In this document: positions 27,711 through 51,128 of the stretch, piece by piece
Position numbering within the stretch: position 1 is the stretch's first letter
Layout: each line of letters opens with the position of its first letter
Origin: Vishniacozyma victoriae
Taxonomy: Eukaryota > Basidiomycota > Tremellomycetes > Tremellales > Bulleribasidiaceae
Direction: 5' to 3'
Length of the DNA stretch: 64,000 nt
Assembly (NCBI GenBank): GCA_017654735.1
Contig: JADPYG010000001.1
Span: forward strand, 372,001 to 436,000
Notes under the pieces: generated by a model
Told to the model about the DNA's origin: nothing
What the model saw: only the letters and a program-made list of their open reading frames with translations
Databases searched by the model: none
Translations under genes and position numbers: made by a program

Positions 27711-30700
27711 CTAGAAGATAAAGTGATTCTTTGTCAATGGCAATTCCGTCGCAGGCGGAGCATCACAGAGAACACCATCAGCCTTGACCTCGTAGGTCTC
27801 TGGATCGACTGCCTTGTCAGCCTTCGAATATCGGGGAACATACCAGTCATCTTTGGCATAGCATCATTCAACTTCATATCCTTTTTAGTGATCTTTCGAC
27901 AGTTCTTGACAGGTTCTGCCCTCTTCTTGATCCCGTATGATGCGATCTTACCTGCTTGTCAGCTCGATATGAGTGGGACCTACCATTATCAACGGAAGCT
28001 TGGCTGACCCAGACTACCGAGTTGAGAGCAGCTGCTGAGGGGTGGTATCCCCACATCGGACGACCGATCACTGGCTGAACCGTAGGAATGGATCCATTTG
28101 CATCGCCCATCTGATATCAGTCTTAGGTCCTGGTGCAGGTTGAAGAAGGAGGATGAGATGAACTGACCTGAGCCCAAGCGATGACTCCTCCTTTAACTAT
28201 CATGTTCGGCCTAGCACCGAATGAGTCGAAATCCCAGAAAGCTAGATCTGCCATTTGGCCCACTGCAACGGACCCAATCAGGTGGGACATACCATGAACA
28301 ATAGCACTGAACATTAGGCAACTCATGATTTTTGGGCTGCTGACTTACGGGTTGACGGTGTATTTGGCGATATATCGCTTGACACGATTATTATCTCTAC
28401 CCTCAATATCACCTTCCAGCGGACCTCTCACATCCCTCATCTTGGCAGCAGTCCGCCATGTCCGAGCGATGACCTCACCCACTCGACCCATCGCGAGAGC
28501 ATCACTTGAAATAACGGAAATAGCACCCGTGTCTTGTAATACATCCTCCGCAGCGACTGTTTCTGCTCGAATTCGAGAATCAGCAAAAGCGATATCTTCA
28601 GGAATGGATCGGTCGAGGTGGTGACAGACCATCAACATCTGAATGTTAGCTTCGCTCGGGGGCTATAGCTTACGTCGAGGTGCTCATCTAGGGTGTTTAC
28701 GCAGTATGGTCGCGTTGGGTTGGTTGAGGAAGGTAGGACGTTTTCTTGCTCGACTACTACGATGATATCGGGTGCGTGACCTCCTCCAGCTCCTTCCGTG
28801 TGGTATCTGCAAGTGTGAGATTTGCTCAATGCTGAGTGAGAGAGGCTTACGTATGGATGGTCCTGCCTCCTATGGCCTCCAGGGTCTTTTCCACATACCC
28901 ACTCTCATTGAGGGTATCAGTGTGGATGTTGACCTGTTAGTCAGCATCTCGATGACTTCTGCTCGAAAGCCAACACTCACCTGAACATCATACTCGTCAC
29001 CGACCTGCAAAGCTCGATCGATAGCCTCAGGCGTACATCCCCAATCTTCATGTAGCTTCAAACCCATCGCTCCGGCTTCGACGATATCCCTGGAACCATT
29101 CATTCCAGCATCATTTCCTTTACCGGTGAATCCAAAGTTGAGAGGTAGAGTATCGGTGGCCGCCATCATGTTCTTCATGTAAAATTCGGATGAAGTACAG
29201 GTGGTAGCGCAAGATCCAGCTGCTGGACCTGTTCCACCTCCTACGACTGTGGTAACTCCTGATGCCAGTGCCTATAGTCAGCTACCTTCCACTGGACGAC
29301 TTACTTCTTGAGCAATCTGAGGGCAGATGTAGTGAACATGGACGTCTATTCCTCCTGCAGTCACAATCTCTCCCTCACCAGCAATGACCTCGGTACTAGA
29401 TCCAACAATCATATGTTCGGTGACGCCATCCATCGTATCTGGATTACCAGCTTTTCCAATTCCAACAATCAAACCATTCTTGATACCGATATCAGCTTTG
29501 ATGATACCGCTCCAATCAACAATGACAGCATTGGTGATAACGGCATCGAGAGCTTCACGATCGTGTCGGTTCGTTGCTTGACCTTGTCCTTCTCGGAGTG
29601 ATTTGCCTCCACCGAATTTACATTCATCTCCGTATACCGTGTAATCCTTTTCTATTTCAATCCAGAGGCTCATGTCGGCTAATCTGATCCTGTCGCCAAC
29701 GGTAGGGCCAAACATGGAAGCGTACTGAATCTCAGCGGAATTGAAGAAGGTGAACTCACCACTTCAGGATCCATCTCTGCCATAGTACCCTCTTTAACCT
29801 GGTCCTGCTTCTTGTGCCCAAACCTATGCTTCTCGACCATATCCTTAATCGTTGTCTCTCGTAATGATTCATCAAAAGTACCAGTCCCCAGACCGTTACC
29901 ACCAGACAACCACTGCTTTCCCCCATATTGAACTAGCGAGACCGTCTTGCGTTCTCCGGGCTCGAATCGGACAGCTGTTCCAGAGGCGATATCGAGGTGG
30001 GTACCGTAGGATAGTAGCCTGTCGAAGATAAGGGATGGGTTGGTCTCGAGGAAGGGGTAGTGTGATCCGACCTACTCCGTCAGCTCAAATTTCCAGAGTG
30101 AGATGCTGCAGGATCGTACCTGGATAGGCCTATCACCAGCATTCTTGACCTCGACAGCCCATCTCTTTCGGCCGACATTGAATTTGATTTTCTCCTTCTT
30201 ACAAACAACAGCCCCAGCGAGATATCCTTTCGGCGTCTCGGGGATGGGGAACATCTCCTCCGTTGGCATGGGGAGGAATGAACCGTAAAGTGCATTCTCC
30301 ACTACGTTTCAGCAGGTGAGGTTTATAGGTAGACGTACGGTCTCCTGAGTCTGAGCAAATGGGATCATGGACAGATACTAGAAATGTTCTGGATATTAGC
30401 TGTGCTCTACACCTGAATTTGTGCTTGCTCACCCATCCTGAAAATCAGCTGTAGTCTTCGAATTGAGAAAATCAGCTTACCGGGAATGTCCCCTCGACTT
30501 GTACATCATGAATACCCTCAGCAACGCCATCTGCCATCAATTCAACCCTACACTCCATTCGATGAAACTCACCCATCACATGCCTCCTTCCCAAGAACTT
30601 CTTTCCCAAATCCATAAGCTCAGCAACGCTGTGCCGACCATCCCGGATAAATTCATGTAATTGGAAAGCGATAAGAGCTACTGCTTCTGGTCGATTTAGG

Positions 30701-46229: not shown

Positions 46230-47693
46230 TCAGGGAGAGTTAGCAAGGCGGTAAACATCCGCGACTAGATACAAACTTCCACAAACTACCACCAACTCGT
46301 CATCCGTGACTCCCCCAAGGATCTGCTTGAGCCCTTCTACTCCTGATTGATCCACTGAAGCCGCCTCGCCGGATATAAGATTGTTGACGACGTCCCTGAC
46401 TTCATCCTTGTTGGCAGGCTTCACCCAAGGCATACCCTCAACAGGCGTAGTGAAGTCGACAAGAGTCACTTTATCGCCCTGACCAAGTAATGGTCTCAGA
46501 ACGCTTTCGGGCGATTTACCAGGTGAAGCCGATAATGAAATGACAAAGTGGACCTTGATTCCAGCGCCAAGATCATTGATGTATGCTCGAAGTGTCTTTG
46601 CCGAATCGGCATTATGAGCCCCATCCACAAGTACAGGAACTGATCGATCGGTACCAGGAACAGTGTACTGTAACCAAGAACACCTTCCTTCCCATTTCGT
46701 AGCTTCCACACCACGCTGCATGATAGGTGGTGTGACCCTAGCGAGAGCAGGTTGAATCGATAATGCCCGTTTATCACGCGAGAGAACGTGAACGATCGTA
46801 AGTGCCAGAGAGAGGTTATCGAGTTGATGTTGCCCGCCTAGAGGAAGTCGAGTCGCAACGTAATCTTCTCCAGGAACAAGCCTTCCATCTAGGATAACAG
46901 GTATTCGAGTCCTCACATGTACTGGCTGAGGAGGGACGAATGGCGAAAGCGAGAATGGTCGTCGATCTTCCTTGATAACAGTCGTCAGCCCAGCTTCAAT
47001 GACAGCCGCGCGAAGTTGGAACCCAATTCCATGAGCGACGTGCATAGCTTCCGGAGCGAGGTTGGGCGCAGTAACAAGTAATCCACCAGGGACAGTAATT
47101 CTAGCCTTCTGATCGGTAATAGCAGCAATACTATCGCCCAAGAAAGTCGTATGATCCAATCCAACAGAAGTAAGGGCCGAAGCGAGATTATAAGCATGTG
47201 GAATGACGTTCGTAGCGTCATTCACACCGCCCATACCGCATTCGATAATCATCACATCGATAGGTGGTTGAGCAGTGGCGAACATGTAATAAGCAGCAGC
47301 CGTAGCGAACTCGAATGGTGACACCTCGATTTGTCGTTGAGCAGCTATATGTCGAATAGTACCAACGGCAGTATCATAGACCTTGCGAGGAGGTGGAACA
47401 CCAGCTATGCGAACAGCATCTCGAGCTTCGATAAGATGAGGCGAATTGTATCGAGCCGTTCGAAGTCCAGCGACGGTGAGGATTGAATCGAGGATGGCGG
47501 AGACAGATCCTTTCCCATTGGTGCCAGCGAGGTGAATAGCAGGAATCATCAATGGCGGTAGATGACTCATGAGTCGCCTCATATGACCCAGAGTCAAATC
47601 GATCTTGTCTGCCCGACTACCCTGTGGGACGGTTGGAGGCCTCTTCGAGTCGTACCCAGCAGCCGCCGGATCAGAAATGTGCGCAACCGACAT
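46230..47693 (-). other. FOL3: Dihydrofolate/folylpolyglutamate synthase module of the fused frame
   Basis: These enzymes add glutamate to dihydropteroate or folates using ATP. The domain is complete: DLTLGHMRRLMSHLPPLMIP, HLAGTNGKGSVSAILDSIL (P-loop), RYNSPHLIEARDAVRIAG, SPFEFATAAAYYMF, VMIIECGMGGVNDATNVIPH, SVGLDHTTFLGDSIAAITDQ, KARITVPGG, LPLGGQHQLDNLSLALTIVH, VPVLVDGAHNADSAKTLRAY and VVVCGSLYLVADVYRL. The 'GLDH..FLG.....I...KA.I' block favours the Fol3 (dihydrofolate synthase) side over Met7-type FPGS, but this is not decisive. The first in-frame Met close to the domain is at 47693 (MSVAHISDPAAAGYDSKRPP). No intron is required inside the domain. Confidence 0.85.
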
Positions 47694-50600
47694 GACCTGA
47701 GAGCGAGGTTGTGGTCGATTGTTTGGAACGTTTCCAGAGGCGTGGACCGAGTGCATAGATGGGCGAGCCCTGAATTGGGGTTCAGGTACAGGGTAGTACC
47801 CATGCGGAGGCGGAGGGGCGTAGTGCTGCGGTGGATATGAATGATGACCATTCTGCTTGAGGTCAACACTTGGCCATGAAGGTTGAGCCGAATCACATAC
47901 CACGACGCGTGTTGGTATTCGGGGATCCATCATATATGGCGCAGGGGCATATTGCGGGTGATGGGGATGATACATCGCGCCAGGTGGCGGACCGAGTGGT
48001 GGTGGACCATAAGTCATGGGTCTGGGCTGGTATGGCACCCCATTGGATGGGCCGGGTGCGAGTGGGCGAGGTGGTCCGAACGCGCGAGGCTGAGCTCGTG
48101 GAGGGGCGGTGGTACTGGTACTGGCCCTATGCTCGACTTTGGTAGGAGTAGGAGGAACGGCAATCGATCGTGACGGAATAGGTTCCTTGGCTTTGGTATT
48201 GTACGTTCGAGCTAGTTGTCAGCTAAGCCCTCGTCGAGAAATATTTAACTTACCATATTCATCCACCTGCAATTTAGGCTTGGTTTCCTTAAACTCGATC
48301 CTGTCAAATGGTACCCAATACTTTTGTCCCGTCTCCAGCCGTACTTCCACCTGTGAACTGTCCACCAAGACTCGGACCAGCGATCCGTACATATATCCTC
48401 CACCCTTCGATTTGACCTTGAGTTGTGAATCGATGGGCAGAGCAAGGATCTTCTGCTTGAGGTCTTCAAGACCTTGTGCTCGTCGAATAGCAATTTGGGC
48501 CTGGATTGTTAGCTTGGCTTCTGAAAGAGGCTGGGGATCTTACGGGATTATGAGACTCGCACAGCAATTCAATCTTGATAGTCTTACTAGGTTCCACAGG
48601 GGCAGCTGGATCCGCACCCTCGATGGGAGCAGGCCACTCAAGGACCTCGTGGACTTGGTACAGAACCTTCGGATCTTCCCTCGCACAAGAGACATGATAA
48701 GCCTTGACGCAGGATTTTGACTACTCGTCAGTCGCCGTAAATAAGATTTTTCAATGACATACCTTGGTACACTGAACTTTTGCGCCTGTAGTCCTCAACT
48801 TCTTATCCAGACAAGACGAACACTTGAGTTTCCATCTAGCCGCCTCAATTTTATCGGCGCCGACGATATGTAAAACCGGTACGCCATCTACTTCAATATC
48901 CTCAATCCCAACTTCCGGTATACCAAGGGCGCAAGAGTGGTGAGCGGTGATCGTCGACTTGTCGATGGACTGTGAATGCGCCTTGACCGCTTCCGTGGGC
49001 TCGTAGACGGGTCGCAGGTCTTCGGTGGAGAGTGATGGACAGAATAGACATGGATACGAAGTGGGTTCTTTGACAATGACGGTCTTGGGTTCTTTGGCAA
49101 TCTTGATCTTGCGTGTTCGATAATCGAGGCCGTTGACGGGTAATGTCGTCTCGTGCTCTTCGAGATTCAATTCAATCGGATCAGTGGGAGTGTCATCATG
49201 CTGGACAATCCTAATCTTCCTCGGCTTGGGCGTATGTGTTTCACCTTCCGCCTTTCGTTTTCGTGGTTTAATCTCTGTCCGTACTTCCTCAATGACCTCG
49301 GCCAATTCCCTCTCTGCCAACATCTCGTCGACATTAATCCTAACACTATGTTCCACGCATTCACAGACTTTTGCCCTTTTGCCCAATTCCAACCAACTCT
49401 CCAAAGCGAAATTGATACTTTCGGCACAGTTGAATCCCATGTTGAATCCAGCATGATATCCTCGGGGATAGGTGATAACGTATTCATTTTGGTGATGTAC
49501 GAGCATATTGACTGGAATCTTGTCGTTGGCGAGTTGCGTAGGTGACATGGTAAAACTCTTGTGTCGTAGGAACTGGTCGCATCGCTGAGCGTCTTGTGGG
49601 AAATATCCAGCGAGAGTGTGTTCGAATCGATCAGCATGTCGTTGAGGGACAGCATACCAGAATTTGGGAGCTCCAAAGTGGATATAGTTTATCGAGAATA
49701 GATCCATATCTTCGACGTGCCATGCGAATGTTGCGCCGTACATCCCGAAATAGAGATATGGCGAGTTAACTCCAGGTAATTTCTTGGTCAATGCACACCG
49801 GTTGAGCAAGTTGGGCAAGCAAGAGACGTTCCAAGGAGTAGATTTATCGGCAAAGAGCGAACCTTGTAGATCGGCACCGTACCAACTTGGTTCTCGCGTC
49901 AAGAGGGATTTCCAGAATTTCTTTTCCATGTTGGAGCATGCTTCCGGTGTATAGTCTTCGGGTTGCGTATCATGCGGTAGCCATGCGGTTTTAGGGTCGA
50001 AAGTCTCGTAGAATGGATCAAGGCCTTGTGATTCAGGTGTACGTGCCTGCGGATCAGATTCGGTTGAAGAGTGTGGTGAATGTCCAAGAGCGGGGACGTC
50101 GTCGGCACTTGGATCTTGTTGCGAATGCGAGTTGATCTGCTCTTCCTCATCCTTGACGTTCTCATCCTCTTGTTGCGAGCCAGCTCCAGCCATACTTTCC
50201 CTCTCCTCCTTCCGCTTCTTTGCAGCAGCCAGCTTCTCCCTCCTCTCCGCCTTTTGCCTCGTCATGTCCGCTACAGCCTGTGCAGCTCGTTCCTTGGCCG
50301 CTTTTGATCCCCGATCGAGAGCTCTGTCCACATCCTTAGGTCCCGGACCGACAAATCTCTTGTCTTGACATTTCTCGAACCATTCCCTCACATCCAGTGG
50401 GTTCTGACGACGTTTCTCGACGTTCGTTACTCTAAACAGACCGGATCGACCGAGCATCGTTTGTTGAATCGGTGATTTGATGCGGACGTTACTGAGTGTT
50501 TCTTTCGAGATGGCGGGTAGGGCACCATTCCATTCGGGTGGAGGAATGATCTTGGCTATTCCGGAATACTGACCCCATGGCACTGTTTTGGTGACATAGC

Positions 50601-51128
50601 CTTCAAAGTCCTATTCATCAGCTAGTCCGAGGGTCTCGCAGAGCGCTCGGAAACTTACCTTGAACTCTTCCATCGTCGGTCTGAAGATTGGAATACCCCG
50701 CTTAGCTTCAGGATCATCTTCAGGTGAAAGCCATTGTTCCTCTTGTCCAGATTTCCATGGCGAAACATATCTCCCTCCGGCTCCATTGTTCAACGGAAAG
50801 CTATCGGTCAGCTCTATTCCAAGGCATATCAAGGGCTAGCTTACAATTCCGCTGGCTGTAGATACATCGGTCCCGGATCCTTCTCCTCGACTGCAATATG
50901 CTTTCTTATAGTTGAAGATCGAGGCTTATAAGTGGGCACTATTCGCGAAGGCGGTGCCTGCGATGATCTAGTCACACGAGGCGACCTTGAAGGTCCAGCG
51001 CCAGGTGAAGATGTTGCAGGTTGATCATGACGTCTGAGTCTGGGTGTGATCGGTGAAGAAGGTGTTTGTGTGTTCAAGTCGGCCGAAGGTAGTGTGTTTG
51101 AGGTTGAACCGGCAATTGAGGTTGACAT
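46230..51128 (-). CDS. KDM4-type JmjN/JmjC histone demethylase read in frame into a dihydrofolate/folylpolyglutamate synthase
   Basis: The ATG at 51128 opens a Ser/Pro-rich start. Then come JmjN (IPIFRPTMEEFKDFEGYVTK, joined by intron), JmjC with Fe ligands in FAWHVEDMDLFSINYIHFGA and YPRGYHAGFN, a basic stretch, and an extended PHD finger (YPCLFCPSLS, HHSCALG, LKCSSCLDK, GAKVQCTKSKSCVKAYHVSC). A Tudor-like segment (YMYGSLVRVLVDSSQVEVRL) follows. The exon ending LQVDEY joins in phase, over a 42-bp intron (48212-48253, GTAAGT..GCTGACAACTAG), to ARTYNTKAKEPIPSRS and a Pro/His/Tyr-rich linker. The same frame runs on without a stop into the full synthase domain, ending at 46230. KDM4 enzymes remove methyl groups from H3K9/K36. 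If annotated as two genes, the second would start at the ATG at 47693. Confidence 0.7.

Follow-up and report, generated by a model that had tools for sequence, protein, structure and literature searches.

The minus strand of a 64,000-nucleotide stretch of the Vishniacozyma victoriae genome (the window; contig JADPYG010000001.1 of assembly GCA_017654735.1, positions 372,001 to 436,000) carries, between 51128 and 46230, six exons that on re-reading of the sequence splice into one stop-free frame of 1559 residues. The predicted chain runs JmjN-JmjC-extended PHD-Tudor, the arrangement of the KDM4/RPH1 type of histone demethylase, and continues through a disordered linker of 202 residues into a complete dihydrofolate/folylpolyglutamate synthase (FolC). 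We regard it as very probable that the locus is a single gene for one bifunctional protein, in which some 200 residues of flexible linker tether a KDM4/RPH1-type demethylase to an intact FolC/Fol3-type synthase. Judged from the sequence, a single translation product is highly likely, and it is equally likely that both halves are catalytically active.

The locus and its spliced frame

The five introns are short (44, 48, 42, 43 and 42 nt). The last of them, the junction intron (GTAAGT...CTGAC...TAG), starts at the one 5′ site that a scan for introns carrying a branch-point-like CT[AG]A[CT] picked up between 48300 and 46230; when it is retained, an in-frame stop ends a KDM4-only reading at 48219. 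The initial annotation, made from the letters alone, had claimed that a 42-bp phase 1 intron leads into a Pro-rich linker, that the frame stays open to the end of a complete synthase and that no spacer lies between the halves. All three statements stand: the intron is where it was placed, all 1559 codons are free of stops, and the linker is GC-rich and holds no intergenic-like stretch.

The first half is predicted, from sequence, to be an active KDM4/RPH1-type histone H3 demethylase, which for this family would mean removal of methyl groups from H3K9me3/H3K36me3. It shares JmjN (PF02375, 48 bits against a cut-off of 26) and JmjC (PF02373, 130 bits against 24) with the KDM4/JMJD2/RPH1 enzymes, among which yeast RPH1 (3opt) is the best solved relative by sequence; RPH1 is also the nearest solved structure for JmjC, followed by human KDM4. 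The WHVED and GYHAGFN segments align to RPH1 and KDM4C and contain the H-x-E...H residues that we take to be the iron ligands. The zinc-binding region scores above the Pfam cut-offs for PF13771 (44 bits) and PF13832 (41 bits), and its profile matches are the extended PHD regions of BRPF1, NTO1 and Jade. In exon 5 a sequence profile search for a Tudor domain gave no match, and the support comes from the fold: the exon was modelled from the single sequence, without an alignment, as a small Tudor-like barrel (predicted local distance difference test, pLDDT, 75) whose best matches are the Tudor domains of PHF19, MTF2 and PHF1, with PHF19 at the top (E 2e-4, TMt 0.81, TMq 0.58). Several of the matched entries bear titles naming H3K36me3 readers. 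The model thus supports a single Tudor-like barrel before the linker, and the extended PHD and Tudor-like parts of the initial annotation can be kept, the former by Pfam and profile and the latter by predicted fold only. Such readers are variable among fungal KDM4/RPH1 demethylases; Aspergillus nidulans KdmA, as described in PMC4949671, shares the PHD-type zinc domain and has no Tudor, whereas the V. victoriae protein has one barrel. Another JmjC match in the assembly, incomplete and interrupted by a stop, lies at G000:C12:466011-466100.

The second half matches TIGR01499 with 238 bits (cut-off 162.65) over profile positions 5-399 of 400, and structure comparison recovers the FolC fold. The P-loop, ECGMGG-DATN and the C-terminal DGAHN align to the Lactobacillus casei folylpolyglutamate synthase and fall in invariant or nearly invariant columns, and we presume that these residues play the roles known from the family. 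FolC, Fol3 and Met7 are normally free proteins, the solved bacterial ones having 402-487 residues, whereas here the synthase forms the C-terminus of a chromatin enzyme; in Coprinopsis cinerea, according to PMC7552465, Fol3 and Met7 are separate genes. Searches of the V. victoriae assembly for a second FolC or a MET7-type synthase with TIGR01499, with the smut FolC protein P0048 and with three P-loop/SSPHL patterns returned only the fused gene. Two further matches to the GTNGKG pattern sit in stop-filled sequence, and a PF08245 search was uninformative, as it failed to recover even the fused gene. The same assembly also encodes a dihydropteroate synthase and a reductase. With these present and the fused FolC the only one detected, the fused domain is probably the dihydrofolate synthase of the cell; sequence alone does not separate this activity from polyglutamylation. 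A search of viral_contigs for FolC relatives gave none.

The linker contains no stop in this frame; the two remaining sense frames have 2 and 6, and the three antisense frames 3, 10 and 7. Its G+C content is 58%, against 39-40% in both flanking intergenic stretches. A synonymous-codon score is positive in this frame only, and weakly so (0.020 per codon; -0.05 to -0.14 in the other linker frames, 0.127 for FolC and 0.064 for KDM4). First-order Markov simulations, 5000 for each composition, left a run of 202 codons open in 0.9% of cases when given the composition of the linker and in 0/5000 when given that of the intergenic stretches.

Table 1. Features of the fused gene, in window coordinates
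Feature	Position	Strand	Support or remark
Exon 1	50845..51128	-	predicted start codon ATG at 51128; N-terminus without Pfam domain
Exon 2	50659..50800	-	end falls within JmjN (residues 132-165 of the spliced protein)
Exon 3	48763..50610	-	remaining JmjN, JmjC, initial part of extended PHD
JmjC catalytic domain (residues 427-543)	49408..49758	-	Pfam, alignment; H-x-E and distal H present
Exon 4	48544..48720	-	second part of zinc-binding extended PHD; profile and Pfam
Exon 5	48254..48500	-	Tudor domain; fold
Junction intron	48212..48253	-	42 nt, phase 1
Exon 6	46230..48211	-	linker and complete FolC; stop 46232-46230
Pro-rich disordered linker (residues 901-1102)	47604..48209	-	pLDDT <50 over model residues 1-197
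Recurrent linker motif IPTRVVVCDS	47889..47918	-	
Internal Met (MSVAH...)	47691..47693	-	possible second start; conserved in closest relatives only
FolC domain	46233..47603	-	profile and fold
P-loop GTNGKGS	47505..47525	-	

About 270 nt past the FolC stop, from 45958 downwards, starts the next minus-strand gene, which reads by eye as an aldehyde dehydrogenase of the delta-1-pyrroline-5-carboxylate type. Elsewhere in the window, 29310-29591 on the plus strand matches the Rfam family 5_ureB_sRNA; the minus strand there reads by eye as urease coding sequence, and the match probably reflects conservation of urease, not a small RNA.

The joined architecture among relatives

A homologue search with residues 901-1559 of the fused query, admitting lengths of 0.55-1.75 times that of the whole fused query, scored 8000 candidates and listed 60 proteins. 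JmjC is also present in 30 of these 60 long FolC proteins, and two more (P0029 and P0031) combine pieces of the extended PHD or Tudor with FolC. The 30 include two apparently faulty gene models, P0006 (2572 residues, with a zinc-cluster factor besides) and P0030, which lacks the P-loop, as well as P0032, which has a garbled stretch in JmjC. Named records make up 26 of the 30 and come from Kwoniella (12), Cutaneotrichosporon (4), Cryptococcus (3; C. amylolentus and two without species names), Vanrija (3) and, with one each, Naematelia, Kockovaella, Cryptotrichosporon and 'Tremellales sp.'; by taxonomy look-ups, all of these genera fall in Tremellales or Trichosporonales. The names of the listed KDM4-FolC records, where informative, say demethylase or RPH1.

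The join between the end of the Tudor and the FolC P-loop is also found in one chain in 11 metagenome or assembly proteins (P0023, P0025, P0027, P0029, P0031, P0163, P0167, P0168, P0189, P0194 and P0216), three of which (P0023, P0025 and P0027) are counted among the 30 as well, and two of which (P0163 and P0168) are named as synthases by their source. These records were read as protein and their gene caller is not stated, so that a single frame here means a reading of the protein chains. P0025 begins MLTLQ/HFDVYM, like the end of an intron followed by exon 3, and aligns to residues 138-1558 of the window protein in one piece; it is likely to be one genomic open reading frame of 1470 codons. 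A merge of neighbouring gene models was considered as the source of the fusions and is unlikely, since the metagenome and assembly proteins show the same join. The same order in one frame, which the initial annotation had suggested seeking in related genomes, is found at the protein level in the 30 long and the 11 metagenome or assembly proteins. By comparison, the 92 other listed KDM4 relatives are all without a FolC-type Pfam accession, and literature searches, judged by titles, turned up no description of a KDM4-FolC fusion. Both enzyme families are known; the joined architecture is new.

Throughout these relatives the linker diverges fast, and P, S, G, Q, H, N, Y, T or A account for 64-79% of its residues in the 37 proteins measured. 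It often retains a short motif, IPTRVVVCDS in the window protein and IPSRVVVCDS, IPSRVVLVES, ATNVVVVDS and similar elsewhere, which by eye we liken to a SUMO-interacting motif. The motif is found in 30 of 44 linkers, with both orders represented, whereas 500 shuffles gave 0.18 on average; the pattern was defined after inspecting the sequences, and the 44 linkers are not independent of one another. Among the 92 KDM4-only relatives it occurs in 3, and clearly only in P0064, itself inside the fused clade. An additional in-frame intron within the linker (47900-47853, GTATGT...CAG, 48 nt) would excise the VCDS part of the motif; it was rejected because the branch-point scan does not list it and the motif turns up repeatedly at the protein level.

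The history of the join was approached through trees of each half. The KDM4 tree comprised the window protein, 21 of the 30 fused proteins and 10 of the 92 KDM4-only proteins picked for spread, with P0029 and P0031 dropped as too short; support values are those of the Shimodaira-Hasegawa-like approximate likelihood ratio test (SH-aLRT) only. All fused rows form one group together with the KDM4-only proteins of Cryptococcus neoformans, C. deuterogattii and C. depauperatus and with P0064 (SH-aLRT 98). Outside it lie only KDM4-only proteins, from Naganishia (on a long branch), Phaffia, Mrakia and three Agaricomycetes. Constraining the fused rows to a clade of their own is rejected by the approximately unbiased (AU) test (p-AU 5e-45, or 1.4e-7 without P0064). 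In the FolC tree the free C. deuterogattii and C. depauperatus synthases nest beside that of C. amylolentus, and they still bear an NGLGKIDLGL or GGVGKIDLGL lead. The window protein itself falls with the Cryptococcaceae in the KDM4 tree (92), but the FolC tree groups it with Trichosporonales and others (95). Most simply, these sequence relationships would reflect one fusion before the separation of Tremellales and Trichosporonales, kept in most lineages sampled and later split in some.

Alternative readings of the locus

A number of observations weigh against the reading as a single bifunctional protein. C. deuterogattii has separate models for KDM4 (1269 residues) and FolC (529 residues), and so has C. 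depauperatus (1068 and 489 residues). The C. neoformans KDM4 model (1279 residues) lacks FolC, its own FolC record not having been seen. P0064, on the Trichosporonales branch, ends in the linker without FolC. Tremella mesenterica, a member of Tremellales, has a FolC model of 535 residues, which the FolC tree places at the base of the fused group, its KDM4 not being among the 120 KDM4 matches listed; this model and the unseen C. neoformans FolC record do not fit neatly with a history of one fusion and a later split. The linker motif is absent from 14 of the 44 linkers, including the three Cryptococcus fusions and 6 of the 12 from Kwoniella. The Met at 47693 is conserved in each of the seven nearest relatives covering this region (P0153-P0157, P0159 and P0160), FolC elsewhere in Tremellomycetes and in smuts has other N-terminal partners or extensions, and a MET7-type synthase of V. 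victoriae could have been missed because of introns.

The split models, together with the long linker-like tail that the KDM4-only proteins of these Cryptococcus species retain, are what would be expected if the locus held two adjacent genes and no fusion protein, the open linker being the C-terminus of KDM4 up to a separate FolC start. We consider this improbable. The joined frame recurs in the long and the metagenome or assembly proteins alike, and a start codon in the right place is generally missing: among 31 relatives (P0030, without a P-loop, is left out) the nearest upstream Met lies at a median of 47 residues from FolC, within 10 residues in 2 and more than 100 residues away in 4, and none is conserved across genera. 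Where the free enzyme would start there often stands, directly before FolC, a G-x-GKIDLGL-like sequence. The split forms, moreover, nest inside the fused clade. As regards the separation of the halves in sister species, split models do exist in side branches, but the three Cryptococcus ones fall within the fused clade, and because their KDM4 nests there, C. neoformans, C. deuterogattii and C. depauperatus would have split the gene later or had it annotated apart. The initial annotation had named two adjacent genes, with a second start at 47693, as the plain alternative to a fusion; for the clade as a whole this is unlikely, because a Met just before FolC is not conserved, while an additional product from that start is conceivable in this species, which shares Met 47693 with its closest relatives.

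Such an addition to the fusion, namely free cytosolic FolC made from Met 47693 by way of an internal transcription start and a KDM4-only protein from retention of the junction intron, is possible and we hold it to be doubtful. P0164 and P0166 are predicted to begin at the MSVAH Met, as would fit an extra FolC-only product possible in this genus; intron 5, if retained, stops the frame; and folate is needed outside the nucleus too. Speaking against it, the MSVAH block is absent in the next relative, P0163 (0/8 identical), whose intron remnant apparently reads through without a stop. Other genera have no conserved Met here, and the region is GC-rich and without an intergenic-like stretch.

A different question is whether a genuine bifunctional protein need have any functional link between its halves. 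FolC may repeatedly have become the C-terminal part of whatever gene happened to lie upstream, and we give this about even chances. In Naganishia FolC (P0033-P0035) is joined to a histone deacetylase, with PF00850 at 204-505 and FolC from ~733 in P0034. The related proteins P0184, P0186, P0188 and P0190 take in FolC and the segment that follows the deacetylase domain, the domain itself not being covered, and in P0033 a Met precedes FolC by 4 residues, so that a free start is possible there. Because its FolC clade is separate in the FolC tree, the Naganishia protein is taken as an independent fusion, in which the same synthase again forms the C-terminal part and the histone-modifying partner is another one. 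By eye, a Cys-rich, MYND-looking N-terminal part precedes FolC in one chain in P0036, P0220 and P0231, and a membrane-protein-like tail does so in P0202, P0203, P0206, P0209, P0210, P0213, P0214 and P0221; Pfam scans of P0202, P0206, P0220 and P0036 named no convincing partner domain. Named smut records (P0045, P0046, P0048, P0049, P0050 and P0052) are FolC proteins of 1187-1395 residues, the synthase of P0048 lying near residues 830-1366 behind an extension without a Pfam call. Because other relatives carry other N-terminal partners, the identity of the partner may matter little. On the other side, the partners include two enzymes that modify histones, the join to KDM4 has been retained over two orders, and the short linker motif recurs. 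A chromatin partner of FolC is thus frequent and not the rule; a fusion without a functional link is a strong rival to the reading that we prefer, in which the dihydrofolate synthase of the cell is co-expressed with and tethered to a histone demethylase, and the tether may have no chemical role.

Folate chemistry and histone demethylation

If the bifunctional protein is made as predicted, the fused synthase would supply the dihydrofolate of the cell, each demethylase molecule would bear a folate-making enzyme, and the two activities would be tied together in amount and in place. A nuclear location of the fusion is somewhat favoured; it would bring folate synthesis or polyglutamylation, at least in part, into the nucleus, where demethylation would release formaldehyde and one-carbon units would be used. 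FolC acts on dihydropteroate or a folate with glutamate and ATP and does not use formaldehyde. Because it consumes none, any coupling must run via tetrahydrofolate (THF) that is made or retained, and the formaldehyde of demethylation could be captured by THF or its polyglutamates as 5,10-methylene-THF. That the two chemistries are functionally coupled in this way is a tentative proposal, on the unlikely side. A more specific version is a little less likely still: folate would be made at chromatin, with the Tudor and PHD readers bringing the synthase to methylated histones and THF capturing the formaldehyde released by JmjC. Should this version be true, a link between the synthase and a histone enzyme would have been invented at least twice in Tremellomycetes, with KDM4 in Tremellales/Trichosporonales and with the deacetylase in Naganishia.

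There is a precedent for the underlying chemistry. Reviews describe the capture of formaldehyde by THF, and LSD1 as a histone demethylase that binds folate (PMC11375787 and PMC4406087, citing Luka 2011, 2014); LSD1 likewise links histone demethylation, formaldehyde and THF in the nucleus, and reviews on the coupling of nuclear folate and demethylation point to THF binding by LSD1. The difference lies in the means, since LSD1, a flavin enzyme, binds THF, whereas here a JmjC oxygenase would be covalently joined to an enzyme that makes folate. In these yeasts, de novo folate synthesis may at one step depend on a chromatin regulator and share its regulation. The fusion would offer a natural and genetically simple system for asking whether histone demethylation is coupled to the supply of folate in the nucleus, and the C. 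neoformans group, with its unfused genes, would serve as a natural comparison.

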